From assembly GCF_003473485.1 (NCBI RefSeq), contig NC_053046.1, positions 40,881,832-40,945,831 on the forward strand: DNA of 64,000 bases. Reading direction: 5' to 3'. The notes under the pieces were generated by a model. That model was not told where the DNA came from. It was given only the letters and a program-made list of their open reading frames with translations, and did not search any database. This DNA comes from Medicago truncatula (Eukaryota; Streptophyta; Magnoliopsida; Fabales; Fabaceae). Position 1 is the stretch's first letter. Each line of letters opens with the position of its first letter. Of the stretch, positions 9,413 through 59,927 are shown piece by piece. Both the position numbers and the translations under genes were made by a program.

Positions 9413-11512
<2,100 letters not shown>

Positions 11513-18263: not shown

Positions 18264-20160
<1,897 letters not shown>

Positions 20161-22589: not shown

Positions 22590-23836
22590 TTATTCATTCC
22601 TCCTATTGGAAGAAAGCTTTTTTTGTACTTTCCTATATGAGAAGTGAGAACCAAACCTCCATGCTTTAACACCAAGATCCTCCTCAATCATCTTAGTACT
22701 TAAATCAACCCAAGCTAGTTTGCCATCAGTTTTCTGAAAGAATACTATATTGCAATTCTTCCCAACTCCGATGGGGTACTCAATGAAAGGTATGTGTTCA
22801 ACGGTAAAGACATTGGTCCATGATTCTCTAACATCGAGTTCGCCTAAAATTGATATATAAAAAGTATATGTCTCTAGATAAGTTGAGATCAATGCAATGG
22901 ACTCATTTAAAAGCACCAAGCGTTTCGCTTTGTATTCAACACATCGAGGACTAACATCCAAGTATGAGGGTGTGGGTGTTGTAATCAACACCTCATTACT
23001 AAAGTCAAATGATACCAAACATTCTTCAAAATTATCTGAATCATCAGTTCTAGCACACCAATGACACACTCCGTTCGTGTACAATCCGATACCTCGCTTG
23101 AACGTATACAAATAACAGTTCGGTATACAAACATCAAGCTTCCTCCAACAGTTACTTCTTAAAGAATATATCTCCCAAAAGGTCTCATAAGATGATCTAT
23201 CATTAATATAACTATCATCTTCAACTATATTATCTTCAACTAAGGGAAGATAATCTACAAATTGAACCACTTTATAGTCATTTGTTGCACAATCATAACC
23301 AAATCCTTGAAGAACATACCATGGGATCCGAGAAGGCAATACACACTAAAGACGGTTGGGAGGAATGACCTTGAATTCCCGAGTAGTTGGGTTCCATAGT
23401 ACAAGAATGCCATTAATTTTTCTTTTGAGACAAAAATTCCATTAATATTAACGGAACCCAAAATATAAATATGACGGTCATTCTCTTGAAATGGAGGTGG
23501 CCAATCAATTTTGACCTTATTTTTAAACCTCTCGCCTGAGAGCAAATAAAACTCACAAGGGATATGGTATTCATCTGTCGGTTCACCATGTAGAACGAGA
23601 TATGTATCATCGTAATGATTATTACTAGAAGTAGATGTCAAATTGTTGCGGTACATAATAATGAAATAAGAGTTTTGAAATAAGAGGGACCATGGCTTAC
23701 ATACACATTTGAATCTTTTCGACGATTTTAGAGGGAGTTTTGATAGAATACAAGATGTGATATCATCCGATATATATTTCCTAACCTTTTTCCTTGTTGT
23801 AGCAACAACCTCTGTTTCTTCGATCATCGTCTCCAT
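22590..23836 (-). pseudogene. F-box/FBA-domain protein, broken (copy 1)
   Basis: Minus strand. From METMIEETEVV (start codon at 23836) the F-box reads YISDDITSCILSKLPLKS followed by CVCKPWSLLFQNSYF. The FBA-type interaction domain follows (EFYLLSGERFKNKVKIDW). Near 23420 the frame shifts: the family motif LWNPTTREFKVIPPNRL continues only in another frame. An in-frame TAG follows that motif (about 23347) before CVLPSRIPWYVLQGFGYD. The rest (22590-23339) stays open and ends SSNRRNE. One frameshift plus one stop suggest a young pseudogene; gene-finders may call two short genes. Intact relatives act as substrate receptors of SCF ubiquitin ligases. Confidence 0.82.
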
Positions 23837-23914
23837 GTATGGAAACAGGTGGGAATGAGATTGAGAGAAAATTGTGTTGCAGTATCGAATATTTATTCCA
23901 TCCGGTAAAGCCAT

Positions 23915-24770
23915 TCCTGTATGAATACTTGTTAAAAATAACTTTTACATTGACATAAATATAGAAAAATATAATTCATATATTTTTAATTTTAAAGTAG
24001 TGTAAAAATATAAATTATATTTGAAGAATTTATCCAAACCCTCTATTTTTTCCTTCCTTTTTACAATCACCTCCTTCTAAACTCTCAAACAAACTCGTCG
24101 ATTTCATTTGAGAGTTTAAGGGGAGGACTTTGATAAAAGTAATGATAAAGAGGAAATAATTAAGAGTTTTGAGAGGGAAAGACTTTGAGAGTTTAGTTTT
24201 ATTCATAATATAAAACCAAGAAGGTTTTGGAGAGTTTATATAAATTCAAATTCAACCCCTACTATTGCACCTACATACGACAAGGTATTTCCCTTTCAAT
24301 TGAGCTACAATTATAAGCATTAATCTATCATTTTCTAAAAATAAATCTTTAAAAAATATGAAAGACTTCTTAATTATTTTAATCCCAAAGCCCTACCTCC
24401 GTCGAGCTATAGAGATTTTTTAACAACTTGGGTTTATCGGAATTAGATTATTTCAATTTTAACGATTTATTTTTTCTTTCTAATGGTGAAAATAAAATCA
24501 TCAAATCAAAGGATCTATTATTCAATTTCGATATGGAATTTATGAACTGGATTGAGGAAGTATTTTACATTGGATAGCGATGACTAGAATTAGTGTTTAA
24601 AAGTAGGGTAATCTTTATCTCACAAGTCGACCACGTTTTCTAAGATAGTGTCAAAGTAAAATTATTTCTGACCACGTCAATTAAAATTATAGAGACATGT
24701 CATTTGCTTTAACCAAAATTATTTCCATTAGGATTTGATAGCGTCAAAGTGACTGACTGAAGCCCTTTTT
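23915..24770. other. Spacer upstream of F-box copy 1
   Basis: AT-rich; GAGAGTTTAG-like motifs recur at 24090-24200. No gene was recognised. Confidence 0.4.
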
Positions 24771-25010
24771 GCTGGGCTCACTCTGTTTGGCAAGCTGACT
24801 TTTTGAAGATCATATGCTACTCTGACTCACTTTATATGGTGCAGTCACTGACTATGAACACTCACTCACCGTTTTCATCATTATGGCAACATGTTAGAGA
24901 TTACATGAAGAAAGATTGGAATGTTACGCTCCACCGCATCCTTTGTGAGAAAATGAGACAGAAATGGAATGCAAAGCTAATGGCAAAGAGCAACCTACAA
25001 GTATCAGCCA
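24730..25010 (+). pseudogene. RNase H-like domain fragment, probably from a LINE
   Basis: Forward translation gives EALFAGLTLFGKL in one frame and then KIICYSDSLYMVQSLTMN and HVRDYMKKDWNVTLHRILCEK in another. The order matches the plant RNase H-like domain (an acidic YSDS site and a late H-R-I-x-C-E-K run) found in LINEs and some host genes. A frame change and the short length mark it as a remnant. A host-derived RNase H pseudogene is the alternative. Confidence 0.5.
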
Positions 25011-25059
25011 GAATTTCATGTAAAGCATCAAGTAACATGCAATATATATTAAAGTGAAG

Positions 25060-26160
25060 TTTCAGAGAATCCAAGAATGAGTAACATGCAGTTAGAGATT
25101 GTGTAAAAATTCTGAGTATGTCTTGAGATCTCAAGATATTATAAGATGTTCCCTAATTCACATATTTTTCTCATGTGTTGAATCCACAACTTGATAAAAG
25201 TTTGTCCAGAATTGATGGAACATGCTCTTATGATCCATCTAGTCGTATCAATTTGGTAAGGACCAAATCTAGTCATATCAATACCATCTTGCTCTTGTGT
25301 GCAATTTGGAGTCTATTCTAAAGATTTTGCCACATATATGTCCCTCAAATCTCTGCCGGTACGAGATATAGGCATATAAAATTATTCAACAGCAGCACAA
25401 CATGAAATATCATTAGCAATATCAGTTGACTCAACATCAGTCATGTCCATATCCTCAGATTGTTCTCTTTTGGCTTTTGAGTTCCATTCAAGGAAGCTTG
25501 CATTTTATAGTATGCAAACAAGACATGATTTGTATCCTAAAGTTTAAGGCAAACTATTTCTCAAAAGAAATTTTATGTTCCTGCAAAATATTGCATCCAC
25601 ATGCTCAATTGTTTAGCTGCCACACTACAAGATAGCTGATGTGCAACATCTGTAGCAGAAGCAATGCTTGCATTGTTGACTGAAGTGAGCAAAAGTGAAC
25701 ACAACTAAAATGTACATTAAAAGCTGTTTTGTAGAAGCAGAACAATTGAATAACAATGATTCTTATCAAAATAAATACTAGCAGATTCGGTTATTGGTCG
25801 TGAGAGAGTGTCTCTTGTCATGTTCAAAGAAAAATAAACTCTAAATGGTTCTAATGATATGTGTGATCCAATGATGAAAGGAGTTGTTGGAATGGACAAC
25901 ATGATGAAAGTCAGATTTTTCAAGTAGAATGTAATGAAATTTATAAGCTATTTCTGTATAAAATCGGTAAAAGAGCATTCATACAATTGAAATAGAAACC
26001 GGAACAGTTTACATATAGAAAAAGAGTAAACTATCAAAATAAAAATAATAAAGAACAATTCTGTTATCTAACAGTTTGTTAATTTGGCAACACAATAAGC
26101 CACTCTACAAGGGAAAAATCTAGTAGGCTTAACTTCTGAGTGAAAACAGAAAACAAAAAT
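25060..26160. other. Spacer between RNase H fragment and F-box copy 2
   Basis: No convincing coding region, RNA gene or complete mobile element was seen. Confidence 0.4.
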
Positions 26161-26165
26161 CAATT

Positions 26166-27359
26166 CTAATTTATTCCTCCAATTGGAAGAATGCTTTCTT
26201 TATGGAGTACTATTTTACCATAAGAATGCCTTGTTATAACACCAATCTCCTCAATCATCTCGTTACTTACATCAAACCAGGCTAGTTCACCGTCTCTTTT
26301 CCTAAACAATATCTTGCCCTTCTTACCCGCTCCGATTGGATAATCAAGGCAAGGTAAAGGTCCAACAATGAAGAGTTTAGTCCATGATTCTTTTATACCG
26401 AGTTCCCCCAAAATTGATATGTGAAATGTACATGCCCCGATATATTTAAAATGAAAGCAATAGACCCATTTAATAGCACCAGTCGTCTCTTGAGAAACCA
26501 ACCAAAACTATCATCCACGTAAGAGGGTATGGGAGTTGTAAGCACAGATTCGTTGTTGAAGTTAAATGACACCAATTGAAAATGTTTTTCAGTTTTACTC
26601 AACCAATGACACACACTATTCATGTACACATCTCTATTGTCATAAGAGCGAGGTATATCGACCTCAATTTTCCTCCAAGAGTTACTATTTAAGCTATATA
26701 TCTCCCAAAAACAAACAGGTAGCAATTCACGGGTTATAGAAAATTCTGTAGGAGCCGAACCACCTTATAGTCATCTTCAACATAGTCATAACCAAATCGA
26801 GCGCCGCGATTATTGGCAACAACTTGCTTAATAGGGCTCGGTGGAATGGATTTGAACTCATGTGTAACTGGGTTCCAAAATGAAAGTGGGGTTCCACGAT
26901 TACAATAGAGACAAATAGTGGCATTAATACTAACGGAACCCAACATTTCAAAACGAGCATCAGCATGCAGATATGCTAAGTATGCGTCTACAAATACTGA
27001 GTCATCATATGGCGGTAGGTCATCCTCTTGAAATGGAGGGTTTGGCCAATCTAATTTGACCATATTCTCACACCTTTCACCGGAGAGAGAAGACAAAACA
27101 TTTTTATAATCTTAATAGCCAGCATCATCATCCGGCGTCGTTTGTACGAGTACAGATGCACCGTCATAATAAGAATGATCCTTCAGTAATAAATGGTTCC
27201 GGTACATAGTCATGAAATAAGAGTTATCAAATAAGAGGGACATACACATTCAAATCGCTTCAAAGATTTGAAAGGAAGTTTTGACAGAATAGAGAAGACA
27301 ATATCATCAGGTACATGATTGCTAACCTGAAAATGTGTATCATTAAACCATTTCTCCAT
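26166..27359 (-). pseudogene. F-box/FBA-domain protein, broken (copy 2)
   Basis: Minus strand, starting MEKWFNDTHFQVSNHVPDD and with F-box DDIVFSILSKLPFKSLKRFE. It is a paralogue of the copy at 22590-23836: both share ILSKLP(F/L)KS, the SGER motif, the WEIYSL motif, and C-terminal LGEL...ESWT...YPIG blocks. At least four breaks are visible: a small deletion inside the F-box after FECVC, a TAA before NVLSSLSGERCEN (near 27110), a frame change near 26740 and another near 26430. It ends ESILPIGGIN. It is clearly older or less constrained than copy 1. Its 5' end faces the NMD3-like gene across 190 bp. Confidence 0.85.
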
Positions 27360-30735: not shown

Positions 30736-31190
30736 GAGTTAAATATGCTTTTGATCCCTATAAATATATCAATTTTTTGTTTTAATCTCTCTAAAATTTT
30801 CCTTCAACTTTTAGTCCCTATAAAATTTTCAATCACTATTTTTTATCCCTCTTTTGAAGTAAACTCATATGTAGAATTCATATTTTTGTAAAATTTTCAA
30901 GAAAAATTCATAATATTTTAAGAATCTCTTCCTAAAAAAATTAGAATTTTTTAACAAAACATGAATTTTTACGGTTAAAAATTCAAATTAAATTTGTGTT
31001 TTGTTAAAAAATTCTAATTTTTTTTACAATATTCTACACATTTCATTAAAAAATATAAAAAATAACTGAAAAATAGGGACTAAAAGTAGTGACTCAAAAT
31101 TTTATAGGGGCTAAAAGTTGAAGGAAATTTTTAGAGGGACTAAAACGAAAAGTTGGAATATTTATAGGAACCAAAAATATATTTAACCCT
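30736..31190. mobile_element. Foldback MITE, 'GTTAAATATG...GGTCCCTATAAATAT' family, copy 1
   Basis: The inverted ends are GTTAAATATGCTTTTGATCC and its inverse (CCAAAAATATATTTAACCCT). The arms repeat TTAGTCCCTATAAAATTTT-type motifs. The centre holds ACAAAACATGAAT/GTTTTGTTAAAAAATTC. Related copies lie at 42765-43172 (interior in the opposite orientation) and 33036-33155 (right part only). Confidence 0.75.
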
Positions 31191-31979: not shown

Positions 31980-33035
31980 AAGTTATTTCTTATAAAAAAT
32001 GAAAAAAGTTATTTCTATCTCTGCTGAAGGTCATTAATGATGAGGCCTATGTTACCCCTAATCATAAATAAGATTCAATTTTAGAACAAAGTAAATGAAG
32101 ATCATGTTAAATGAAAGAGATGAAAAAGTTTGATGTTCTTGAGATGAAAATGGTGATCCTACATTTTTCTTGAATGAATTGATGGTAATTTACCCCTCAT
32201 GACATATACAATTCGATTTTGGAACGAACGAGATGTATATTACATCTTCGATGAAGGAGATAAAGAAGTTCGAAGTTTTTAAGATGGTAATGATAACTGA
32301 TTGTAAGAAGAAAAAAAAACTATGAAGTCCGGGTACGATACGATACAGGTACGCGAATACGTGATTTTTTTAAAATTTAGGATACGATACAATTATGATA
32401 TGTTAACAAAAATTTTATAATAAAACTTATATGTCATTTTATAAAACTTTTCATTGAGTTTTTATAAGTATTGGTCTAGGTGAGATATGTTTAATTACAT
32501 TTTTCTTATGTTGCAGTTCGGTTTGGTTTTGTTTGGTTGGTAAAATGAAAACCGCAAACCATATGGTTGAACAAGAAAATGATCCGATTACATCTGAACT
32601 AAATGCGGTTTTTTGCGATTTCGGTTTGAATTGGTTCGATTTGTGATTTTTCTATTTGGTTGGTTCGGTTTTGAACACCCCTAAATCAATCTTCATTACT
32701 ATATTACTAGCAAAAAGACGAAACTCATAGAAAAATATAATCTAATTTTTTTATAATGACATCAATACCAATCTTTATTATAAAAAAAATTCTTTAAAAA
32801 ATAAAAACTTAGACCAACAAAAAAACATGAAGGTCTAAGTTAACAAAGGTACACATTTTTATTTAGACAAAAATACCCTTTATCATTATTTTAAATCAGT
32901 TTTAAGTTAGAGGATAATTTGGTAAACTTCATTTATTTTATATTTACAAAAAGAAAAAACCATATAACATTGAAACGGTTTCCTTATTTGCCGTAAATCT
33001 TTGTTCACCTTCAACATATATATAATTTGACACTT
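31980..33035. other. Repeat-rich spacer
   Basis: No gene. It contains GGTACGATACGATAC-like repeats near 32330-32400 and CGGTTTGGTTTGGTTCGGTT-like inverted pieces at 32515-32680, probably the ends of an old terminal-inverted-repeat element. Confidence 0.4.
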
Positions 33036-33155
33036 TAAAAGGGACTAAAATGAAAGATCGAAAACTTTACAAGGACTAAAAGTTGAAGGAAAATTTTAGA
33101 GGAATTAAAATAAAAAATTGATATATTTATAAGGACCAAAAACATATTTAACCCT
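33036..33155. mobile_element. Partial copy of the 30736-31190 foldback family
   Basis: Only one arm is present: GGGACTAAAATGAAAGATCG, AGTTGAAGGAAAATTTTAGA, and the end CCAAAAACATATTTAACCC. The partner arm is missing. Confidence 0.6.
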
Positions 33156-33778
33156 TTTAAGATTAAGTTTATTCTCGTTAGTGTTGTCTTTTTTTATTTT
33201 GGTTTGTTTAATGTTTTTAATTGTTTCTTTGAGGCATAAACACGTTGATAATAAAAGTGGAACCGAGTTAAAAAGAAATATGTTTTAATTAAAATTACTA
33301 AAATAAACTTCAAGATATTAGTTTAAACAAATAAAGAAGAAGGTTAAATTTGTCAATTACAACAACTCTTGCATGGTTTCCCCTTTTCAACCCTGCTGCA
33401 GCACCCTATTGTCCAATGGTCTACTCAAACACTGCACCATTTTCGCCACCCATTGATTCAAAACACAGCAGAGAACAAACAAAGATACCATTTTTCTTCT
33501 TCTTCTTCTACTTCTCTATTAAGGAAGCAACTTTTGTTGACACACTGATATAGCCATTATCAGGTTTCATTAGCTTTTTTCCAAAACTTTTCCCTTTTTC
33601 CATTTTATGTTAACAACAAAAAAGCTTCTACCTTTTTTACTTTCTTTTCACTTTTCATTATAATCAAATGAAGAGTGTTGGGAATGTATATGTATGTTTG
33701 TTTTCAAAACTGTAATTGCATTTTGGGTCTGTGTTGGTTCTCTCTCATTTCAAAATGAATAATATCACCACAGGCTAG

Positions 33779-36700
33779 ATGGCAAGAGAACTCGTAGATG
33801 AAAGAAGTACCTCTTTTGCAGCTCATAAGAGAAGAAAGACAACAGATTCAGGTATTCAATGTCATCATCATCTTTTACCGATTTGATTACTAGTAATGTC
33901 TTTTTTATTTTTATAAATAAATAGCAGTAATGTCTTCTTTGCTATGTAACATGATATGCTATGAAACTAGCTAGTAATGTCTTTTATTTTATTTTATTTA
34001 TAAATAAATATATTTGTAGCGGTGTCGGTGTCCAATGTTTTTTGCATTTATTTAGTAGTGTCAACATGTCAGTGTCGTGTCAGGTGTTCGTGTCGGAGTC
34101 CATGCTTCATAGGTAATATGTAACTTAAAGGTCCATAAGTCAATCTGGTAAACACGGATGAATGATTTACGATACGGTTATGTGGGCTTATTTTGGTATA
34201 TGGTTCATGAACTTCAAAATCATATTCACAAACTCATGACATATACACCAATCATGTTCATGTACTTCTTTAGCCATTCTACATTGCTGGACTAAACATC
34301 TGCGGGACTACTCTTATTTGTTTTACCTCTCCAAGTTTTCAGATAATTCAAGTCTTGATACTTACTTAATTGCTCTTTTCATTTATTTTTATGAACATTA
34401 GTAGGTCCTCAACCTGAAAATGCCACCATTGTGGATAGCCAGCCTGGCAAGGATCCTTCTCCATTTAAATTCACATGGAGAATTGAAAGATTTTCTTGGA
34501 GGAACGAGATAAAGCTCTGTTCAGATGTATTTGATGTTGGGGGCTATAAATGGTATCCCCCGAATCTATTCATGATGTTTATCTTTCTATTTCAGTTGAC
34601 GTGATATACAATATAATATTTTGGTTTTGTTTGAGCCATGTAGATTCTATCTATTGGAGGAACTGATTTTGTTGTAGTTGTTACATTAGTTCCTGTGTGT
34701 ATTTATCATCTGTGATCCCTTCTAATGTTTTTTCTTTTATCTGATCAGGCATGTAATTATTTTCCCAGAAGGGGACAATGCGATGGACCATTTGTCCATG
34801 TATTTTGGCGTTGCAGATTCAGAAAATTTGCCCAACGGTTGGAGTATTTATGCACAGTTTACCATGTCTTTAGTTAATCAAATCAATGCTGAGGACTCTG
34901 TGACAAAAGGTACCCTATTCAGTATTCAGTTTGTTCCTTACCGTTGTTATAAAATGAGCAATGCTGGAATTAAAAGCAAAGAATGTTGTAAATTTTTTAT
35001 TGCATTTGTTGAAAGAGAATTTTATACTTGTTGCACTGCCCTTTCTCCAAGAAGTCTGCATGATTGTGGTAGGTTGTTTTCTGATTAACCAATAATGTTT
35101 TAACCTCGCGGAAAAATGCTTTTGGTGTTGATATAAATTTCAGAATCTTGCTAAATTAGTTTCTTTCCACGTGCCTACCTCCCCATCTTCTCATTCAAAT
35201 TTTACGTCATTGAACTTTTCTACTTGACTTGAAACTACCACTTGTACATTACTCTTTCCCTGATAAGATATATTTTTGGATCAAAATCTGAAAATAATTA
35301 GTCTTTTTTTTTTTTAATTTAAATTGTCAATGTTGGTATTGTTAGTATTATATATGTTGGCAGTGGGGTTGAACCCTTGACCTCCTTATCACTCCCTAGC
35401 CAACCTCCTTATCACTCCCTAGCCGCCAAGTCATCCTTATATCCTCAATCATATTACTTGTCTTCAATAGACTTTTGTTAGTATTGACATGTTGAATAAA
35501 AGAAGGGTCTAACTACCCAGTGGAAAAGTATCCTCTACCTTTACCGCGGGAAACTCACCATGACTTTTGGGTAGTTTATGAGAGAAAAATGTGGGAGAGA
35601 AAGAAGAGATAACATGAGAGAGCAGCCACTTTGGTGTAGTCACCACCATGACTTCAATTCTCTTTTTTGAACTCTTTCCAAGCCCCGGAAGGCACCCCTT
35701 AAAAAAAAGTGAAAATGCACATATTTTTGGGCAAAGCTGTGTTATTTTTGTAACTTTGTTTGTACTATGCAGACTTGCGGCACCGATTCAATGAACAAGA
35801 ATGTGATTGGGGCGAGCCGTCCTTCATACCTCTTGATGAATTATCTGATCCTTCAAGAGGGTATGTTGTGAATAATACTCTTGTAGTTGAAGTTGAGGTA
35901 ACACGCAATGTGGATGAGAAAGACATCGCTGACCATGTAAGGGTAAGTAGATATTCTTACGTACTTTAGAGCCCAAAATAAATCAAGCCAGGTAGCGACC
36001 TATCATCTTTTGCAGCAAGTTTAACTTCCAAATAAGTTTAGAGCTCTGATTTATTTTATGATTGATATAAGAACGCGTGTCATATTCGACTATTGCAATC
36101 AATGACTGTTCCCGACCAAAAGTATTTCCTAAACCAATACTTTAATTATTTATTTCTCATGAGATGTTCCTTATGAGTATTTCAAGACAATAAAACCAAC
36201 CTATGTTTGCCACTAACTTTTAATTTCTGTTCTACTTTTTCTGTTGGTCTATTCTGTAAAATCTGCACTGGTTTTGTACAATGGGTTTATGCAGGAGAGG
36301 TTGAAGAAAGACCAGAAAGTACAAAAGCACAAAAATAAAGAAAACACAGAGGCTCACCTCTACACTATTATAAGGGTGTTCTAAGCTTGCTTCCCTAGAA
36401 ACTAGTAATGTTTGTTTCTTTAGATTCATCTTGTTAATTGCTCAATCAGATTGTATTTATGTTTATACTGATAACTTAGGTGGTACGAGATGAAGACCTT
36501 GCACAACAGATTGGAAAGGATATATATTTTGATCTTGTTGACCCTGACAAAGTGAGCAGTTTTCGTGTTCCCAAGAATACGACATTTAAAGATTTCAAGG
36601 TATCATCATTAGTTAGGCAATTACCTTGTGAATAATTGCATTAACTTTTTGTACCATCTTCTCAAATTTTTATACACATAAAGAGTCATGGAAGTTGGGA

Positions 36701-39700
36701 AAGTTTTGTTTGTGAAGTGCCGATAGGAAAATCATTATTTTCGATGCATCCTCATAGAGAACAATTTTTTTTAAAAACTGTACTAAAATATTAAAAGCAT
36801 GATGCTAGTTGGAAGAAGAAAAAAATTCCTCATATTAAATCCTTGTGGTTTTTACACTTTTGATTTTGTAATTTAAAATATATTTTATAATGTCTTTTTG
36901 TAAAGTTTGATTTTCTGTTTGATTGTTAATGTGATATGTAGAAATTGCTTGCTAAAGAGTTTGACATACCGGCTGGATTCCAGCGCTTTTGGTATTGGGC
37001 AAGGAGTCAAAACCATACATATCGTCCTATTCGGCCAATGAGACAAACAGAGGAAGCAAGAAGCGTAAGTTCATTTGCTATATGTTGACTCTGTTCATGA
37101 CATTTTACACCAACAGTTAATTCTACGTGTTTGCTTTGTTTGTCTTTATCGTTATTTTTTCCATCCTTGGCTACCTTTAATTTTTTTGAATGACAAATGT
37201 TAGTAGTTAGTTTGTTATATTAATATTTACTCATTTGTTCGGGTTTGAATCCAGGACCCCCAGCTTCTTTTCACTTGGCTCAAACCCGTTGAGCCATCCA
37301 ACCCCCTATCTTCGACTACCTTCTTTTTATTTCTTCAAATTGTATAATGTATATAGGGATGCATCTAATATGGGTCTCAAAAAAAGGGTCTAAATGTGGA
37401 CCATACCATTTTTAGTAAAACATTAGATCTCTTTCCTTTTTTTATATTATAAAATCAATTATATTACTAAAAACAGTAAGTGTTCATCTTTGCACCTTTT
37501 TTAATAGGTCTGTATCAATGCACAAATGTATATGCAGTAAATGCAAGTGGTTTTTTGTATGATTATTTTGGATCGCATGTTTTTTTTTTTCTTTCTCATG
37601 TTAATTGGAGATTCATTTTCTGTGCAGCACATCAATTTCTCTATGAACTGAAGTTTTTTCAATATTTTTCTCATTCTGATTCAAATTGCAGGTTGGACAA
37701 ATTGTATTGTTTTTGGAAGTCGAGCGTGGACCGGTAACATTTAAATTGTGAAGTTGTATGCTATTTTAATGTTATATAACATCATTCAAGCATAGTCCTG
37801 TTGACAAACTACGTTATTATTTAGGATTTACGCCCCATGGCACCAGTACCAGTCACTATGAGAAAGCATGACATATTACTTTTTTTCAAGTTATATGATC
37901 CTGAAAAAGAAGAGCTGCGGTACTGAATAATTTTTTGTGCTGATTTTAATATTTGTTGGTGTACAAGGTGGACCTGAGTTGACTTCAAATGTATTTTCCT
38001 TCTATGGCAGTTATGTTGGAAGGCTCTTTGTTAACTGTTATAGTAACCCGTCAGCAATTTTAGCAAGGATAAATAAATTGGCTGGTTATGATCTTGATGA
38101 AGAGATTGAACTTTATGAGGTTAGTTTGTGTTGTCTGATTTAGCAAGTGTTTGCTTCTGCGGTAGGTTTTAGCCAGACGTGTTTTTTTTTTTTAAGCTAC
38201 CCTTTATAGCTTCTTGATTTTCACGGTAGAACGCAAGCTGGCTGGACGTGCGACTGCGGTGGATAGACGTGGATCCAAACACGCTATTAATTTATATACA
38301 CTGTCGGCGTAAAGATTTTTTTTACGTTGTCAATCAATCATAATTGTCAAGAGTATTAAAAATGTTTGACTTAAATTATTGTGATTTGCTGACATTCTAA
38401 AACTTACATTTTCTGACAATGTATAAAAATTAAACTCTTCATGATTTATCTGTTGTACAACATAAAAATTTCAAATTGTAGTGCATCCTTGCATGTGCAG
38501 AAAAAATATACTTTGTTATTTTGTTTGGGTCAAGCAGTCATGGTTTCAGTTGTTCAGTAACCAAGCTTGCGGTGATTAATTGCAAATAAAGTGCATCGTG
38601 GTCTATGGAAGTTAATCATTCTTGCATATGACTTACCACAAGGGAAAGGGCTTTTTCTTTTGTCATCTTTAGGTGCTGGATCTTTTAATCTCTATGGGCG
38701 ACTTTAATCATGTAGCGTTACTGAGTTAATTGTGTGTGTATTGTTGTGCAGGAAATTGAGTTTGAACCAAATGTTAAATGTGATCCTGTTGACAAGAAAT
38801 TAACATTTACAGAAAGCAAGGTATAGTACATACCCAGTCGATGCTCACTAAGTTACTTTATCATTGATTTTCATATTGATTTGTTTTTCCATGAATGCAG
38901 TTGAACAATGGTGCTATTATATGCTTTCAGAAAGCTTCTGCAGTGGATAACGAGAAACATTTCCGCTATCCCGATGTGCCTTCATACATGAAATATGTGC
39001 ACAATCGCCAGGTATTTTCTTTTTGAGGTTTATTTAAAGGAAATTAGTTTTGTTTGATGTGATGCAAAAATGAAAGCTACTTATTTATTCTTATCCCTTT
39101 TCTAGGCTTCTCTTGAACTGAACTCAGTTTCTTGTTTTCTTGTTCAGGTTCCTATTTGTCTCTCAGACATAGAACCCAAAGATGAAGAATCGTTAGAGGA
39201 GAAAAACGAAAATATTATATCCGAAGAAACAAATGTTGACAAAAACATTGAAGCTCAACAGTCAAAAGGGGAAAATGAAGGTACCAGCAAATCCAACACT
39301 TCAAAATTAGTCAGCATAGACTCTGAAGAATTTGATGCTATGGTAGATGAGGATGTCATTGCGGCAATTGACAGAGTTTTATCGGAAGGGATTACTCTTT
39401 CCTTAAAATCCCAGCATTCTGTCCAAGGACGAGAATACTCAAAACGGGATCCCAATCTCCCTGAGCAACTTCTTCAGGAATTAAGGGATATTGCTTTTAA
39501 AGGAGACTTGGTTGAAAAACTTAAAGAAGGTCTCACTTCTAAAGTTAATTTCAACGCAGTCAAGGAAAAAATTGACGCTAATGCTGATGCATTTTCCTCT
39601 CTCCAATTAGAACAAGTCGGTGCTGTTGTTAACCTTCTCAACAACATTGTGAGGATGCTTGAAAAAATTGAAAATTTGAAAAAAGAGCGAAACATAGCCA

Positions 39701-39981
39701 AGAAGAGCACTGACCAAGATAGTGAAGCATTGAAGGAAACCAGACAGAAAATATTGAACTCAATGACTTCCTTTACAAACGACCAAACAGAACTCAACTC
39801 TCTTGATGCTCAGATTGCAAAACTACAAGAAGACAGGGCCAAAATTGCTGAGATTCAAGATCAAGAGAAAGATAAGATTACATCTTTGAATAAAGATGTT
39901 AAGTCAATTTTCCAGCACCTCGTTGATGATCAAATCAAGTTGAAAAGTGTTGGAAGATCAAATTCCGGAAACTCAATCTGA
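33779..39981 (+). CDS. MATH + USP7/ICP0-binding-like + coiled-coil protein (UBP12/13-like without the peptidase)
   Basis: Thirteen exons: 33779-33851, 34405-34552, 34749-34909, 35773-35942, 36295-36375, 36480-36599, 36942-37064, 37692-37733, 37825-37919, 38011-38119, 38752-38820, 38901-39011 and 39148-39981. All phases fit and give about 711 residues. Residues about 46-180 are a MATH domain (FKFTWRIERFSW, VGGYKWHVIIFPEGDN, WGEPSFIPLDELSDPSRGY). Residues about 185-430 match the USP7_ICP0-binding region of plant UBP12/13 (AHLYTIIRVVRDEDLAQQIG, RFWYWARSQNHTYRPIRP). The Cys-box and His-box peptidase domain that separates these in UBP12/13 is absent; exon 4 splices straight to exon 5. Exon 13 adds an acidic linker and a long coiled coil like that of plant MATH/coiled-coil proteins. 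It could bind UBP12/13 partners without deubiquitinating them; that role is inference. Confidence 0.87.
33959..34112. mobile_element. Decayed hAT-like MITE (CTATGAAGC family) in intron 1
   Basis: The left end CTATGAAAC and right end GCTTCATAG bracket GTGTCGGTGTC repeats. The flanks ATGATATG and GTAATATG match at 6 of 8 bases. It belongs to the family at 301-463 and 60031-60167. Confidence 0.5.
35300..35470 (-). repeat. SINE-like fragment in intron 3 of the MATH gene
   Basis: GGGGTTGAACCCTTGACCTC resembles a SINE B-box region. A 21-base block beginning CCTCCTTATCACTCCC occurs twice in a row at about 35380-35422. No target duplication was established. Confidence 0.4.
37195..37310 (-). repeat. 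SINE-like fragment in intron 7 of the MATH gene
   Basis: GGGTTTGAATCCAGGACCCC and CTCAAACCCGTTGAGCCATC have the layout of the inverse of a tRNA-derived SINE. The ends are not clear. Confidence 0.4.
38142..38286. mobile_element. Small MITE in intron 10 of the MATH gene
   Basis: The left part, AGTGTTTGCTTCTGCGGT then AGCCAGACGTG, is inverted as CACG and ACTGCGGTGGATAG near the right, ending GGATCCAAACACGCTA. This is a common legume short-inverted-repeat element. Confidence 0.5.
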
Positions 39982-40179: not shown

Positions 40180-40760
40180 CTAATCTTAGAATATGGTTCA
40201 TGAATTTTGAAATCCATTATGCATAATTGCATGACTAATTATTAATGTTAGTATCATGCAGTCTTTCTGCATTGTAGGACAACTCTGAATTGTTTTACAC
40301 TTCCAAGTTTTCAGCTAATTTCTCTTTTCATTTACAATTACGATTCAAATAGAGAATTGACAGATTTTCTCAGTTGAATCAACACATTTCTCGAATCAAC
40401 GCATGATGGTCATTTTTCTATTTCAGTAGACATATATACAATATAATATTTTGGTTTCGGTTGACCCGATATATATAGCTGGCTCTATCTTGTGCTTGAA
40501 GTGATTTTTTATTTTATTTTCTGTAGTTGTTATGTTAGGTCCTATCCTATGTGTATTTATCTGCAGTGATCCCTTTTGATGTTATTTTTTTTCACTCTGA
40601 TCAGTCGTGCACTGATTTTCCTAAATGGGAACAATGTGTGTGGACTATTTCTCCAAGTATTTGGATGTTGCAGATTCAGATAGTTTACCCTATGGTGAGT
40701 AGATATGCACAGTTTAATTTGACAGTAGTTGATCAATTCCATAATAACTGTGAGAAAAGG
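40180..40760 (+). pseudogene. Decayed fragment of the MATH gene (intron 1 to exon 3 copy)
   Basis: The stretch from ATATGGTTCATGAA to GTGAGAAAAGGTAGCC parallels 34180-34920. It keeps intron landmarks (ATACAATATAATATTTTGGTT) and a copy of exon 3 near 40606-40760 (compare GATCAGGCATGTAATT with GATCAGTCGTGCACTGAT; TATTTGGATGTTGCAGATTC with TATTTTGGCGTTGCAGATTC). Exon 2 is mostly lost and the frame is broken. It is a partial tandem duplication about 200 bp after the parent gene. Confidence 0.75.
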
Positions 40761-41071
40761 TAGCCTTTAATATATAAGGTAGCAAGCAAATAAGAGAACA
40801 CAGTCATCCTCACTCCAATAGCTATTTTGTTGTATCAACTCATTAAATGATAAATATATTCACTTACTCACTTAAAGGGAAGCTCAAATGATATAACCGT
40901 TGAAGAGTGAGTTATGTGGTGATGGAAGAGAAAGTGCTTCCTTAGAGGAATTTGATCACTTGTTGACTAAACTAAATGCAAAAAAGATAATAGACAGACC
41001 TTAACAGTAAAATGGGGCTAATAAAGTCATATGTAAATTTTTTTATCAAGTATCAGTAAATATATTATGAC

Positions 41072-42764: not shown

Positions 42765-43172
42765 TTTATTTGTCCCAATAAAATTTTCAATCACTACTTT
42801 TGATCTCTATTTGATAGTTAATTTTAATATTTTTTTTAATAAAATTATGCAGAAATGTGTAGAATATTGTAAAAATCTTTTCAAAAAAAAAATTAGAATT
42901 TTTAAATAAAACATAAATTTAATACAAATGTTTAACTATCAAAAATATAAAAAATCATATTAAATTCATGTTTTGTTAAAAAATTCTAATTTTTTTTGGA
43001 GAGATTCTTATAATATTATGAATTTATCTGCAAAATTTTATTCAAAAATATGAATTCTACATATCAAAAGTGAAGATGAAATTCTTTTGAGGGACTAAAA
43101 GCTGAAGGAAAATTATAGAGGGACTAAAACGAAAAGTTGATATATTTATAGGGACCAAAAACATATTTAACC
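42765..43172. mobile_element. Foldback MITE of the 30736-31190 family, copy 2 (left arm shortened)
   Basis: The interior matches copy 1 in inverse orientation (TGTGTAGAATATTGTAAAAAT and ATTCTAATTTTTTTTGGAG). The right arm ends GACCAAAAACATATTTAACC. The left arm begins only at GTCCCAATAAAATTTTCAAT, so its outer end is missing. Confidence 0.65.
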
Positions 43173-46892: not shown

Positions 46893-49129
46893 ATGGCAAA
46901 CCGTGTTGTTCCAAATCCACGTGAAGCTCATCCTGATGCTTTTCATGTCTCTGGTCCTAGAAATGTCACTTCCCTTAATTGGAGAGATCTTATAAGCTCT
47001 AGTTGGTAAGTCTATGTACCATCATGTATCCATTTCAATTCTTATATATCATCAATTTAGTAACATCTTTGTTTTGAATAATCTTTCTAGTTAATAGGGT
47101 GTACTTTTGCAAGAGAGAAATACTAGTGGTTTGTGTGATTTTTTTTTTTTTGCAAGTGTTTGTTTATTTTTTTTTGGACCAAATTCTCATTTGTTACAAA
47201 GTATTTTATTGAAAAAAATTTAAGTTAATAATTTTTTCAATATTTTAATGTGTTATCTAGACTATTGGTTAATGGTGGTGTTGAAAGAGAGGTATATTAG
47301 TAGTTTGTGTGAATTTTTGTGTTAAGTATTTGTTTATTTTTTGATCAATTTTGAAGATGTTAGCACAATGATTTGGAGCATATTGTGTAAAGTTGTGAAC
47401 TTTTGTTAGATGAGTATGTAAAGTTTTTGAATTTAAAGGATTCCATGTTTGGTAATAAATTGGAGATTAGTTACTTGGATTTGAGAGATCTAATTGATTG
47501 AATTGTGCTGTCAATCAGGGACTGCGTTTATAATCTTCATTCTGATGCCTAGTTTCTTAGCTACCTTAGTATTTAATAATTTGGAATGGTGTTTTAGGAC
47601 CCTAATTTTCATCATTTCCTTAACTTGTTCAACTTGAGTTTTACCAGGGTCATGATAAAGAAAAGTGCTTACGGATTTTAATTTAACATTCGAATTTTTT
47701 AAATAACTTCAATAGCTTGATTTACCGGCCCATGGATATTTAACTGTACAAATTTTGTTGTAGGTGTATTAAGTATTAATCTGACCTGAATTCTCTCTCA
47801 TAATAAAATCAAGCATTTCATGTGTCCTGTAAATCGGAACCATTGGATCAGACACTCACATTGCAATTTCTTTTTTTGAATCTAAAACATGAGCATATAA
47901 TCTTTGTTCAATAATTTTTATAAATTGACCATAGTAAATGCATGAATTTGTGACTTCAGCAATTTCACATTAACTTTGCAAAACCTCTTTAGCATTCATT
48001 TGTCAAATTTGATGGAAAGACACTCAAGTTTTAGTGACATTCACATTCTTTAATTGCATATATGTGTTCTGATAGTTATTCATTTTGTTAATACAGGAAG
48101 GATCCAAAGTACAAGCGAACAGTCATTGCCTGCTTTATACAGGCAGTGTACTTGCTTGAACTTGATAGACACGAGAAAAGAGCACCGGACAATGCCCTAG
48201 CCCCGAATTGGTGGATTCCCTTCAAATACAAGCTCACGAAAACATTAATTGACGAACGAGATAAATCCATTTTTGGCGCAATACTTGAATGGGATCAGTC
48301 CGCAGCACTGGCTGACTTAGTACTAATTAGACCAAGTGGTGCCCCTAGAGCTGTTTTAGTACTCCGAGGAACATTACTCAGAAGTCCTACAATGCGAAGA
48401 GACATTGAAGATGACCTCCGTTTCGTTGCTTGGGAAAGCTTGAAAGGGTCTGTCAGGTTTAAGGTGACTTTGGAGACTCTAAAATCAATTTGTGAAACCT
48501 ATGGAAGTAGCAATGTATGCATTGCAGGCCATTCCTTAGGGGCTGGTTTTGCTCTTCAAGTAGGAAAAGAACTAGCGAAACAAGGAATCTATGTGGAGGC
48601 ACATTTATTCAATCCACCTTCCGTTTCACTGGCGATGAGTCTAAAAAATATAGGAGAAAAGGCTGAATACGTTTGGAGTAGAGTTAAATCTGTGCTTCCT
48701 TATGGTAAGGAAGCAAAAGTTAGCAACGATGTGGATAAGACCTCGGCTGTCGCATCGAAAAGTTGGATGTCTCGGTTACCCCGTTCCGGTTCCGGTTTGA
48801 AGGATGCTAGTGTTGTTGGTATAACAAAATGGATTCCTCATTTGTATGTTAACAATAGTGACTATATATGTTGCTATTACAATGACACTAATGGAACAGC
48901 GGAGAAAGTGGTTGATAAGGAGAATGTAGGTGGACAAATTGCAGCAAAATTGTTTGTTGTGTCTAAGGAAAAACAAAAATTTCTTGAGGCTCATGGATTG
49001 GAACAATGGTGGTCAAGCGATGCAGAGCTTCAACAGGTTATTCATAACAGCAAACTCATAAGTAGACAACTTTCATCTTTATACACTTCTACTCCTTCCC
49101 GAATTGTAACAATTGTTAAGGCATTGTAA
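46893..49129 (+). CDS. At4g10955-like alpha/beta-hydrolase (lipase class 3-like), copy 1
   Basis: Two exons, 46893-47005 and 48097-49129, 381 residues. The start is MANRVVPNPREAHPDAFHVS, with SLNWRDLISSSW at the exon junction. FIQAVYLLELDRHEKRAP, GAPRAVLVLRGTLLRSPTM and the nucleophile elbow IAGHSLGAGF (Ser184) are typical of plant lipase class 3-like proteins annotated as At4g10955-like. LFNPPSVSL follows. The C-terminal region with KLFVVSKEKQKFLEAHGLEQ and WWSSD is shared with copy 2. The substrate is unknown; an esterase/lipase activity is inferred from the GHSLG motif. It appears intact and is the reference member of the three-gene cluster in this window. Confidence 0.88.
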
Positions 49130-50846: not shown

Positions 50847-53800
50847 ATGGCATCTGCAGAATCAAGTCCATTGATGTCTTTTGATCATGTCCAGGCTTCT
50901 GTCACTGAGTTCGGTATGTGTTTCAGAATATGTTAGACTATGATCCTTATTTCCTAGTTTCTTAATATAGATTCAATTGGTTTCAGAAACCAACTATGGA
51001 TTAGTAGAAATAAATAATGTTTTGGATTGTATTGGTACTTAGTAGGCAGAAGGATGTACACAAAAAATGATCATACAAACGTACTCATGTATTCAAATGT
51101 ACTTTGTACGGATACTTGATTCATACAAACGCTTCTATAGTTTGCGATCACATTAAAAACAAATGAGGCATTTTTATGAAGTGGTATTATGCTTAAAAAA
51201 TTTGTAGTCTATTGGCCATTACATTTTCTTCCTTCCATATAAACTCATGTTGTCACTATATTTTTGCCATAAGCTAGGGGATTTAACCACAGTTACTACC
51301 AACCCCTGCACTTAGCAATACTAAATGGCGATTGGGAATCCACAAAGGCTTTCCTTGATAACGATCCAAGCACATTGACAGCGAAGATTACAATACTTGG
51401 TAGGACTGCACTTCATGTTGCAGCGGTAGGAGCTCAATGGAAACTTGTTGAGAAATTGGTGCAATATATGCCTGCAAATATGCTATCGGAATTGGATTTG
51501 ATGGGTTGTACTTGCCTTCACTATGTTGCTATGGGCGAAAGTGTAGATTCTGCTAAGACGTTGGCGGCAAAATATCCTTCTCTTACACAAGTAACTGATT
51601 TTAAAGGATTCACACCACTCATCTATAGTATTACCTCTACAAGATGTAAGGACATGGTTTGGTATCTTGTTTTGAGTACTACTGATGAGAGACCTGGCTG
51701 TCCATTCTCTGGTCCCTCAGCTAGTCAACTTGTTGCTTTGCTTACTGCCGCCGGATTTCATGGTAATTAAACCTATGATCTTTAAACTATTGTCGACAAC
51801 ATTGAAGCTGTTTGGATAAACAACTTAATTAAGTGCTCATAACATAAGTCCACTATAAGTGTTTATGTTTAAGTTATTGATAATTTGATTTAACAAAAGA
51901 TAAAATAAAGTCAAACTATTTTCATATAAGTTATAACCTGTTTTCACAAGTACCGAAGTATCCAAAGTTTCAAACATTTAATGTTCCATACACAGATATC
52001 ACCATGTATCTTCTTCAGCGCTACCCTAACTTGGCAACAATTTCTGATTCAAATGGAAGCATTATACTTAATGTTCTGTCAAAATTGCCATCACACTTTC
52101 AAAGTGGACACAAGCTTGGATTTTGGAAAAGATGCATTTACCACTGTAAGTACATTTTCTTTAGGTGTACTTTTCTAGTACAATGTTTGATGGTAAGACT
52201 TTTATGCTACGAAACACTAATATTGACCCTGGATATGAGACCGAAAGTGACACATATGCACCGGTTATCTATTTATAATATTGAGGAGATTTAATGTAAT
52301 CACGTGTATCGTTGTCATATCGGTATAAGATGCTAAACATGCCTTCAATCTGAAGTATTGGTGCTATGTAGTTCTGTTTCCTTATCGCAAAATAACATTC
52401 TTAAACTATAACAGGCGTTCCTGTAGAACTCGAGCATTTGCCACCCAATCAGTCAAGCCATCACCAGTCTTATTTTGGAAATACAATATGGGATGCCCTT
52501 CAAACTCTTGGTATGTTATCCTTGTAAGGAAGTTCATTCCCAGAGATTCTCTAAATGTATCATTCTCTATGAAATTCTGACACAAACACATACATTAGAT
52601 ACGACACTGATATGTAGACACTAATGATAATTTGAAATAATGAAGTAATTGAATGTAACCACGCGTGTCAGTGCGGTGTTGGTGTCTCACACCAGACACA
52701 CCTTCAATCTTAAGGGTAGGTGCTACATAATTCATTCTCTTAATCTTAACTTATGTTTCGTAGTTTATTTAAATTGATAAAATAGACAAATTCTTTTGCA
52801 GTTCCTAGCATAAAGCTAGTTAGAGATACAAAGTTGAGACATGTAAATGCTGTGAGATTGGTAGAGTTTGTTTCCTCACAAGCTTCAAACCTGAATGACT
52901 GTCAATTCTGGCAATCTTTTGTGAGTGCAGACATTATTTTCAGTGCAACATCATCTGGCATTGTTGAAATTTTAAGGATCTGTTTTAGGTTTTTTCCTGA
53001 TTTGATTTGGACTCACATGCCAAATGAAGGGTATGTTGCTCAAATTGCCATAAAGAATAGGCAACAAAAAGTTTTTAGTCTTCTATGCAAGATGCCAATA
53101 ATTTTCAAGCTTTTAGTCCTGGCATTAGATGAATCACAGAACACTACATCACATCTGGCCGCAAGGTTGGCTTCTCAAGTAGAGTCAATTTCAGGTTCAG
53201 CATTTCAAATGCAAAGAGAGTTACAGTGGTTTAAGGTTTGTTTAACTTAATCTCTTAACTACTTAGTAATTTTTACGTTAAATTCCAGAAAGGAAGAAAA
53301 GTATACCATGTACTTCAACTTAATTTAGAGTTTCAAACAGGTCATTTATAAATTCTCGTTCAAATTAGTCCTTTCATTTTAAAAATGATTACACTGTTGA
53401 ACAAATTTTTATTCCTAGTCCACTTATGTTACACATTTGTACATATACTATAAAGAATATTTCACCACTTAGGACCACAATTAGAACCCCCATTGACAAC
53501 GACGTGAAAAAATGACCAACTCGACACGAAAAAAGACATAGGATCTGTTTGAAACTTTAAATAAGTTATTGATAACATAACTATATCACCAACAGGAAGT
53601 AGAGAAATTGGATCACCCTCTCCATAAAGAAGTTAAAAACCAAGAAGGTAAAACAGCATGGCAAGTGTTCAAGGAAGAACATAAAGCATTGCTTGAAGAA
53701 GGGAAAAATTGGATGAAGGATACATCAAACTCTTGTATGTTAGTAGCAACTCTTATTGCGACAATCGCCTTTGCAGCCGCAATAACTGTACCTGGAGGTA

Positions 53801-54180
53801 ACAACCAGGACAAAGGAATACCAATATTCTTGTCAGACAACACATTCATGGTATTTGTTGTGTCAGATGCACTAGCCTTATTTTCCTCAATGGCTTCTCT
53901 TCTAATGTTTCTAGCAATCCTAAATGCACGATACACCGAAGAAGATTTTATGATGGCATTGCCTGAGAGATTAATATTAGGTATGGCTTCTTTGTTCTTT
54001 GCTGTTGTGACTACAATGGTAGCATTTGGTGCAGCTTTGTCTATGTTGCTAAAGGAGAGACTTACATGGGCTCCAATTCCTATTGCTCTTTTGGCTTGTG
54101 TTCCAATTGCTCTATTTGCAAAGCTTCAACTTCCTTTGTTCATAGAAATGGTCATATCAACATATGAATCTCAATTTTGA
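50847..54180 (+). CDS. Ankyrin-repeat protein with PGG domain (ACD6/ITN1-like)
   Basis: Six exons fit in phase: 50847-50913, 51274-51762, 51996-52145, 52415-52510, 52802-53235 and 53596-54180, about 606 residues. The second exon needs the acceptor at CCATAAG; the nearby CTAG acceptor breaks the frame. Ankyrin repeats start at YYQPLHLAILNGDWESTKAF and GRTALHVAAVGAQWKLVEKL. Exon 6 holds the PGG domain (NSCMLVATLIATIAFAAAIT, VPGG) and four predicted membrane helices. Plant members of this family act at the plasma membrane in salicylic-acid defence or salt responses; which applies here is unknown. Introns 3 and 4 carry degenerate repeats related to the CTATGAAGC MITE family. It sits inside the hydrolase cluster. 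Confidence 0.85.
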
Positions 54181-57438: not shown

Positions 57439-59927
57439 ATGGCAAAACATGTTGTTGTTCCTCCCTTAGATGGAATAAAATTGGAGGAACTTCATCGATT
57501 GTACCTAGTCAGTATCCATTTTATTTTCAGATTTTTACTGTTACTCTTTCACTTTTTGATTTGATGATGATAAATGATCTTAGAAGTGAAGAATTTGTTA
57601 GTGTTATTACTGTGGTATTAGAGACACACTAATGCTAGTTGCATTACATGCATATGATTTCTTGTTGAAATTTTTTAGGATGTTGCCATTATGGGTTGTA
57701 ACAAATTTGTATAGATTAATTATAAGTTGACACCCTTTTTTTACCATCCTTGTACACCCCCATGTGACACTAGGAGAAGAGAGAGTGAGAGACAAAGTTG
57801 GGTAGTGTGTGTGTGGGGGGGGGGCACTCGCCACGTGTCACTTTTGTGTGTGGAGGTACAAGGGGTGTATGCCACATTGGGTGGTCAACCTATCATTGCT
57901 CGTTTGTATAAGAGTGAAGACTTAATTTGGTTCTGACAATTTTCGCATGACCCAATTTAATTCGGACAAAAAATAATACCAAATGTCTCCCTACAATTTC
58001 AAATTGGGGACAAATTAATCCATCTATTATAATGAAGGATTAGTTCATAAGGATTGTTCGAAACTGAGCTTACATTCAATTTTTTTCATTTTCGCAAATT
58101 ACGTCCCATGTCCACATGTTAGTGTCAGGTCTAGTGTCTTTGTGCGTGCTTCATAGGTTTTAATTCAGAAACTTCTCTTAGCTAGAAGCTAAATCGAGTC
58201 GTAGATTCCTTGTGTCTAATTACTCGGTTCCTTTATGCTGTCAATCAGAGACTATCGTTATAAAGTCCATGTCAAACCGACACAAATATTGATTGATGAA
58301 AGAGATGGGTCCATTTTCGGTGCAATATTTGAATGGGATCGGTCTGCAGCATTGTCTGAATTCAAACCATTCAAACCAGTTGGAGCCCCAAGAGCTGTTT
58401 TAGCACTCAGAGGAACGCTGGTCAGATTTCCTACTATGCGAAGAGATTTTGAAGACGATTTCCGCTTTGTTGCTTGGGAAAGCTTGAAGGATTCTGTGAG
58501 GTTTAAAGTAGCTATGGATGCAGTAAAATCGGTTTATGATACATATGGAAGCAGAAATGTATGCATTGCAGGGCATTCTTTAGGTGCTGAATTTGGTCTT
58601 CAGGTGGGAAAAGAATTGGCAAAGGAAAGGATTAATGTGGAAACGCATTTATTTAATCCACCTTCTGTTTCACTTGCTCTGAGTCGGGGAAACATTGGAG
58701 AAAAGGCGGAATATGTTTGGAATAGAATTAAAACTGTGCTTCCTTCAAGTAGTGAAGCTCATGTCAGTAACGATGTGGACGAGACTTGTGTTATGCGATT
58801 GAAGAGAATGATACCTCGATTATCATGCTTGATGGATGCTGGTTTTGGAAAAAGAAAATGGATTCTGCATCTTTATGTTAACAGCAATGATTGGATTCGT
58901 TACTTTTATGTCCATTCCAATGGAACAAGAGAAAATATGGGCGAAGTTGAGAGTATGGATCCTACAAATCAGCAAAATGAAGCCAAGTTGTTTGTTGTCT
59001 CAAAGGAAAACCAGAAATTTCTCGAGGCTCATAGCATGAAACAATGGTGGTCAAGTGACGGAAACATAGAGCTTAGGCATGATATCCGCAATAGCAAACT
59101 CGTAAGCGCGCAACTAAAATCTTTGAATAGTAGTACACCTTCTCAGGTCATACTTTTCTATTATCTACGGTATATTTCATTAGCCACGAGTCGCGTAAAT
59201 ATTAGAGATGCGACAGATTATCTTTGGAGTATACTTAAATGTGTGCCTCGTATAAGTGGTAAAGCTCAAATCAGCAATGGTGGAGAAGTGAAGATAGCTA
59301 GAAAGGAGAATATGGATCCTGAAGAGGGTAAAATTTCTGCAACTCATGGCAAACAATGGTGGCCAAGTGACACAAAACTTCACCAAGCTCTCCGTGATAG
59401 CAAACTACACATAAGAAGGCAAGTTAGATCGTTATACATCGTTACACCTTGGGAAGTAATAAAAAGATTAAATCCTTTTATTTCACATCCCAATTGTCTC
59501 AATAATATTGGACAAAAAGAAGAATTTGTATGGAAATGGAATAGTATTAAATCCATACTTCTTTCAAGTAGTGAAACTCAAATGAAAAATGACAATAACA
59601 ACAAGATATCAAGTGTACCGTTGAAGAGTTGGATGCCTTCACTATCAGGCTTCAGGGATGTTGGTTTTGCTTTGGTCAGAAAGGCTTCTCCTATGTTTAA
59701 TCTACCTTTTGTTTCATCAGTCATACGTCGTTGAAATAGTGGAGAAAAGGAAAAATTTGTTTCGAAGTAGTGAAACTCAAGACAGCAATGATTCAGAGCA
59801 GACTTCAATACTTAAGGATGCTACTTTTGGGGTGGGAAAATTTGTTCCCTATTTGTATGCTAACAAGAGAAGTGGTGGCATAGGAGAGAAAATGGTTGAC
59901 AAGGAGGACAAGGGTCCTTTGCAATGA
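57439..59927 (+). pseudogene. At4g10955-like hydrolase, copy 2, rearranged with repeated C-terminal modules
   Basis: A degenerate first exon (57439, MAKHVVVPPLDG) lacks the SDPRNMTTNLNWRDF part of copy 3. A MITE lies at 57726-57889. The long ORF 58235-59734 (499 residues) starts in sequence matching copy 1's intron (TGCTGTCAATCAG) and joins exon 2 at LIDERDGSIFGAIFEWDRS, so the first ~45 exon-2 residues are gone. GAPRAVLALRGTLVRFPTMR and the elbow IAGHSLGAEF (Ser115) remain. After STPSQVI the C-terminal module recurs in shortened form (DYLWSILKCVPRISGKAQIS; then EEFVWKWNSIKSILLSSSET) and once more past the stop codon in a shifted frame to about 59927. The family motif LFNPPSVSL is echoed as FNLPFVSS. 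It may be transcribed but is probably not an active enzyme. Confidence 0.75.
57726..57889. mobile_element. MITE inside hydrolase copy 2 (GTTGACACCC ends)
   Basis: The left end GTTGACACCCTTTTTT is inverted at the right as GGGTGGTCAAC. Internal GTACACCCCCATGTGACAC and GTGTCACTTTTGTGTG pair as well. The unit is about 164 bp. Confidence 0.65.

Follow-up and report, generated by a model that had tools for sequence, protein, structure and literature searches.

Within a 64,000-nucleotide stretch of the Medicago truncatula genome (C5:40881832-40945831, hereafter the window), the gene at positions 33779-39981 appears to descend from a deubiquitinating enzyme of the type of UBP12 and UBP13, the plant orthologues of USP7, with the peptidase taken out and a coiled coil added. 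The domains follow one another as MATH, then UBL1-UBL2 of the USP7/UBP12 type, and then the coiled coil, and on balance we regard the predicted protein as an adaptor that has lost catalysis and changed its specificity, and that is probably oligomeric. The searches covered this one genome (430 Mb, 42 contigs), and in those for the family across the genome only the best candidates were scored.

Reconstruction of each exon, with its borders corrected, gives the gene 13 exons with 712 codons and a stop; as the preliminary description of this DNA had stated, the exons fit without a break, all 24 splice sites being canonical (12 introns GT-AG), the phases compatible and the frame free of internal stops. 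Pfam places MATH_2 at residues 47-171 (1.6e-36) and USP7_ICP0_bdg at residues 266-436 (6.4e-41), the latter reaching only positions 1-171 of the 241 in its profile, and no peptidase family (UCH) is among the Pfam matches of the protein. The earlier idea of a UBP12/13-type protein lacking the deubiquitinase and bearing an added coiled coil is supported. Among solved structures, the full-length human USP7 chain matches residues 1-435 in two separate stretches (query 42-172 with 67-196, and 170-431 with 526-790), from which it follows that the missing part is the whole peptidase. The C19 peptidase, with its catalytic Cys and His, is absent from the protein, the junction in exon 4 skips it, and the 61 UCH matches listed in the genome search all fall outside C5:40.1-41.1 Mb. 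The USP7/ICP0-binding region, described earlier as kept, is so only for UBL1-UBL2; UBL3-5 are gone, since USP7_C2, which corresponds to them, has no match in the window protein, and its three matches in the genome are all at the three UBP loci.

These loci, defined as the three places where the listed matches of USP7_ICP0_bdg, UCH and USP7_C2 coincide, hold the full UBP12/13-type genes of the genome: U5 (C5:38.66 Mb), U3 (C3:39.52) and U1 (C1:18.86). In the UBP genes, the exon reading ...TQHQFNARESDWGF extends from MATH into the peptidase and contains CYMNS, which we take to be the region of the catalytic Cys, and the exon ending in ...NVDEKDIA comes after the peptidase. In exon 4 of the window gene, the 5′ portion of the UBP MATH exon is followed, in frame, by the end of the last exon of the peptidase. 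The earlier proposal that MATH is spliced directly to the UBL region is therefore right in its effect but not as a mechanism, since the join sits inside exon 4; the peptidase would have been removed by one deletion inside exons, and the span that corresponds to it measures approximately 6746 bp in U5, 6407 in U3 and 3929 in U1. UBP counterparts were found for MATH exons 2-3, the 5′ part of exon 4 and UBL exons 5-12, in a search that imposed the phases. Both the window gene and a second complete copy, P41.05, can be aligned with U5 as far as the end of exon 12 and on into intron 12, over 83 and 82 nt, respectively, where the two alignments end at one common point, while that of U3 with U5 continues past it. 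To judge from these alignments, the C-terminus was replaced in an event separate from the deletion of the peptidase.

The same material occurs at six further loci of C5, at 40.15 Mb (+) and at 41.03, 41.04, 41.05, 41.08 and 41.10 Mb (-). MATH exons are found in four of the seven loci (the window, 41.05, 41.08 and 41.10), and all four have the exon-4 junction in common. P41.05 (C5:41046633-41052129, -), some 125 kb away, is a complete gene with 13 exons, in phases equal to those of the window gene, and an open frame of 792 aa; its exons 2-12 were sought with the phases of the window gene required, the open frame and canonical sites serving as the check, and the models of all the paralogues are based on homology. 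At 41.03 and 41.04 Mb the UBL and coil exons are present with no match to MATH; the coil exons are broken at 41.08 and 41.10 Mb, the former also being without an open exon 9; and the copy at 40.15 Mb has a stop in the coil and lacks six of the eleven exons sought. In the codon alignment of exons 5-12 with all positions (nine genes, 40.15 being omitted as incomplete), the family forms one clade adjoining U5 (99/100), and the approximately unbiased (AU) test gives 0.995 to the family with U5, against 0.008 to U3 with U5 and 0.005 to the family with U3. Synonymous divergence (dS) between the window gene and U5, 0.28 in MATH and 0.37 in exons 5-12, is smaller than that between U5 and U3 (0.48 and 0.74), which fits an origin of the family after U5 and U3 had separated.

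The nearest relative of exon 13 found outside the family is a stand-alone open reading frame (ORF), L052 (C8:6210193-6211005), homologous to it from end to end with 22-25% identity. A profile of four family copies scores 44.6 bits against L052, where the best of 1000 local shuffles gave 10.8, and the part of exon 13 before the coil by itself scores 23.4 bits (shuffles at most 8.9). L052 was first met by a consensus query, and in return it finds the family at 9.4e-6 and 2.0e-5; like the intact relatives of exon 13, it ends in PPF. No Pfam family lies above the cut-off in C8:6209700-6211700, and no MATH, UCH or USP7 match is listed near it. The coil could have been acquired from a stand-alone ORF such as this one; of the coil ORFs of C3 and C7, the one scored as a possible source, L054, falls within its own shuffles (13 of 988 scored at least as high as the real sequence). 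L052, its 91% copy at C8:6172242-6173054 and a further ORF at C8:6220490-6221182 are relatives of exon 13 that stand alone and together form a small coiled-coil family; elsewhere in the genome, the coil exon recurs in isolated pieces, most of which contain stops (C3:56916093-56916687, C4:40782894-40783163 and C6:15503909-15504140). In a single-sequence AlphaFold model of exon 13, residues 154-270 of the exon form a single helix. Compared with four relatives that continue to ...PPF, the window gene ends in 9 residues read in another frame.

From its substitutions, the gene looks maintained by selection. Neutral change simulated at 0.185 substitutions per site, the length of the window branch calculated by hand from pairwise dS of exons 5-12, introduced a mean of 12.9 stops and left 0 of 2000 runs stop-free, and at 0.10 per site only 2 of 2000 were so. 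As for the marks of a pseudogene, a broken frame and a neutral ratio of nonsynonymous to synonymous rates (dN/dS), the frame is open, with the tail out of frame, and dN/dS between the window gene and P41.05 is 0.56 (0.44-0.74) over the whole gene. Constraint between these two complete genes is strongest in the coil, at 0.34 compared with 0.77 for MATH plus UBL, and in 0.1% of bootstraps this difference disappears; if the out-of-frame tail is counted, the coil has 0.38 (0.25-0.61). Other coil pairs give 0.42 to 0.94. The heads derived from UBP change fast, whether by relaxed constraint, by diversification or by both: measured against U5, MATH has a dN/dS of 0.88 (0.53-1.69) in the window gene and 0.45 (0.26-0.77) in P41.05. 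Between U5 and U3 the ratio is 0.07 in exons 5-12 and 0.10 in MATH, low in comparison with the family, so that the constraint on the family has changed.

The residues of the ligand pockets have also changed. In UBL2 of human USP7, E759A, D762A and D764A each abolish the binding of a ligand peptide in pull-downs, and D762R/D764R in cells halves the recovery of the full ligand protein without abolishing it (PMC4457826). At the aligned positions 759/762/764, beside which the alignment is free of gaps, U5, U3 and U1 have Q/D/D, six family copies E/N/D and the window gene K/N/A; N at 762 is thus common to all seven family rows, and the acidic pocket (D762, D764), which is D/D in 3/3 UBPs, is not kept in the window gene. 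Contacts of the USP7 MATH domain include R104, D164, W165, G166 and S168 (preprint PMC13142314), where the UBPs and P41.05 have K, D, W, G and T, the window gene E, D, W, G and P, and the copy at 41.10 Mb R, D, W, G and K. The D-W-G core of the groove is therefore kept in the window gene, which differs from all three UBPs at 4 of the 12 contact positions tabulated, with I for L (at M100), E for K (R104), E for F (F167) and P for T (S168); the pocket of P41.05 is UBP-like at 11 of the 12. Exon 4 at 41.08 Mb (C5:41080000-41089999) has E at R104 and Q in place of a pocket W that the other six plant rows keep. The earlier suggestion that the protein keeps its substrate and partner contacts is not supported in that form, the UBL2 pocket being K/N/A instead of Q/D/D and the MATH pocket changed in part.

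Since the gene looks maintained and its enzymatic part has been deleted, the product would probably be a binding scaffold and not an enzyme; a protein made of MATH and UBL1-2 should not deubiquitinate, because it is without the peptidase domain. Assembly through the coil, as the modelled helix suggests, would make the protein oligomerise with itself, with its paralogues or with the stand-alone coil proteins, and would display the MATH and UBL1-2 heads in many copies. The D-W-G core with its changed flanking charges, together with a UBL2 pocket deprived of acids, would serve a set of partners other than that of UBP12/13, and the bound proteins would be clustered or shielded, their fate being altered with no removal of ubiquitin.

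Alternatively, and as was proposed earlier, the protein could be a natural competitor of UBP12/13, a dominant negative whose MATH head occupies the clients of these enzymes and keeps the active enzyme away. We consider this possible but unlikely. In Arabidopsis, UBP12/13 need their MATH domains to bind GI (PMC6704089), MATH has been called essential and sufficient for contact with the target (PMC11511944), and the window gene does keep the D-W-G core. However, competition with the enzyme depends on binding its clients, and in the window copy four MATH positions depart from all the UBPs (one of them conservatively), the intervals of the MATH dN/dS include 1, and the acids of the UBL2 pocket are lost, so that competition is not the best reading for this copy, for which the evidence of residues and rates favours a new specificity. 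In P41.05, with its nearly intact pocket and a MATH ratio to U5 whose interval stays below 1, competition with UBP12/13 is plausible, and this gene would be a better candidate for a competitor than that of the window. It is more doubtful still that we are dealing with a by-product in decay, a fusion duplicate drifting toward a pseudogene. The high dN/dS of MATH and UBL, the out-of-frame tail and the broken relatives at 40.15, 41.08 and 41.10 Mb would agree with such a drift, but not the absence of stops in 712 codons where neutrality predicts about 13, nor the intact splice sites, nor a whole-gene dN/dS below 1.

The model is a prediction resting on genomic DNA, and it might in principle have joined two neighbouring genes or missed a peptidase exon, which we hold to be very improbable: two misjoined genes are ruled out by the chimeric exon 4, where MATH and UBL meet in one exon, and by the complete paralogue of like order, and a peptidase exon hidden in intron 4 is ruled out by the mere 352 nt of that intron, there being no UCH match listed in it or elsewhere in the window. 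Hardly more credible is an ordinary member of the plant MATH-plus-coiled-coil (RTM3-like) family. The overall order, MATH and then coil, is shared, but the MATH and UBL exons here are those of UBP genes, no UBL stretch was seen in the two MATH-coil proteins of the genome (L045 and L046, which, named by eye, are presumably of the RTM3 type), and exon 13 does not align with their coils (hhalign probability 0.1%, a weak test of 4 versus 2 sequences); the shared order is thus probably convergent. A bolder extension, which we regard as quite doubtful, would be a family of UBP12/13 copies without peptidase, specific to this lineage and expanding locally, whose borrowed coil assembles rapidly diversifying MATH heads into a polymeric decoy or scaffold that intercepts traffic linked to UBP12/13, such as proteins from microbes, or regulators of immunity, directed at the parent enzyme.

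Several points weigh against the adaptor of altered specificity. The gene is known from DNA, as a predicted model, and the family from one plant genome. In the comparison with P41.05, neither MATH by itself (0.79, 0.50-1.46) nor exons 5-12 by themselves (0.75, 0.50-1.21) can be separated from neutrality, and MATH dN/dS reaches 1.06 and 1.21 relative to the copies at 41.08 and 41.10 Mb. The UBPs carry Q and not E at 759, and the role of the pocket is carried over from human data. The exon 13 model on which oligomerisation rests is of low confidence (mean predicted local distance difference test, pLDDT, 59.4), Foldseek finds nothing for it at E<=0.001 (best E 2.3), and the C-terminus is shortened by the change of frame. 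With regard to the origin, third codon positions alone are undecided (AU 0.82, 0.22, 0.025), and protein trees do not resolve U5, U3 and U1.

Features of the gene, in positions of the window; limits of the UBL domains within exons 5-12 are approximate, being taken from the USP7 alignment
Feature	Position	Strand	Basis or remark
Exon 1, residues 1-24, basic HKRRK stretch	33779..33851	+	the least certain of the exons
Exon 2, start of MATH	34402..34552	+	rebuilt frame, Pfam, UBP exon counterparts
Exon 3, MATH	34749..34909	+	rebuilt frame, Pfam, UBP exon counterparts
Exon 4, chimeric: end of MATH and tail of last UBP peptidase exon (NVDEKDIA...)	35773..35942	+	
Breakpoint of the putative peptidase deletion, inside exon 4	35897..35900	+	2-nt GT overlap read by eye
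Intron 4, 352 nt, without peptidase exon	35943..36294	+	no UCH match listed
Exon 5, linker and start of UBL1	36295..36375	+	frame, USP7 alignment, UBP counterpart
Exon 6, UBL1	36480..36599	+	frame, USP7 alignment, UBP counterpart
Exon 7, UBL1	36942..37064	+	frame, USP7 alignment, UBP counterpart
Exon 8, UBL1-UBL2	37692..37733	+	frame, USP7 alignment, UBP counterpart
Exon 9, UBL2	37825..37919	+	frame, USP7 alignment, UBP counterpart
Exon 10, UBL2	38011..38119	+	frame, USP7 alignment, UBP counterpart
Exon 11, UBL2	38752..38820	+	last codon is K at USP7 position 759
Exon 12, end of UBL2	38901..39011	+	N and A at USP7 positions 762 and 764
Intron 12, with the breakpoint of the C-terminal swap	39012..39147	+	aligns with U5 to 39094 only
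Exon 13, acidic linker and coiled coil, 277 aa	39148..39981	+	stop at 39979-39981

The ATG of exon 1 is the first after an in-frame TAG at 33776-33778, and the first exon of P41.05 has an equal phase; no other match in DNA is listed for 33300-33952 (40 of 57 candidates being scored) that could indicate the source of this exon, and the matches from position 33953 onward belong to a dispersed repeat. Just downstream of the gene, parts of its intron 1, intron 2 and exon 3 recur in degenerate form at 40277-40766 (40392-40766 is 72.6% like 34561-34916, and 40277-40320 is 84% like 34305-34348). Elsewhere in the window there are a short dispersed repeat, 81-85% alike (33032-33155, 30738-30860, 31072-31190 and 43073-43172), two ORF stretches of identical translation some 8.6 kb apart, possibly the ends of a retroelement (11150-11509 and 19813-20157, +), and ORFs that to the eye resemble F-box, lipase-like hydrolase and ankyrin-repeat proteins (22593-27111, -; 48092-49126, 51273-54177 and 58220-59731, +).

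Among known systems, UBP12/13 share with the window gene the MATH and UBL1-UBL2 exons and, in U5, the 83 nt of intron 12, but they differ in having the peptidase and UBL3-5, in the last exon, which here is a coiled coil, in a dN/dS several times lower than that of the window family, and in the UBL2 pocket. The UBL1-2 module of human USP7 is matched through residues 526-790 but for E759/D762/D764, which here are K/N/A, and L052 resembles the coil as a single ORF with none of the other domains listed nearby. In the available parts of two surveys of plant MATH proteins (PMC3664471, PMC10218331), none of the classes named has the order MATH-UBL-coil with the peptidase missing, although their MATH-USP7 groups are not broken down and may include such members; the literature searched, in the parts available, yielded no description of this family, which does not imply its absence from print. 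For M. truncatula, the MATH genes that two papers connect with disease are on chromosomes 1 and 4 (PMC10140629, PMC11285230).

If the interpretation is right, the locus would offer a case, legible at the level of single bases, in which a strongly constrained deubiquitinase has become a non-enzymatic, fast-evolving protein by way of two mapped breakpoints. It would also be a natural domain deletion of UBP12/13, enzymes that act on regulators of the clock (GI, ZTL) and of brassinosteroid signals (BES1). A fragment made of MATH plus peptidase binds BES1 but shows no activity when the C-terminal UBL region is missing (PMC9483116). The interpretation leads to a prediction that distinguishes the two complete genes: P41.05 should still compete for the clients of UBP12/13, whereas the window gene should not.

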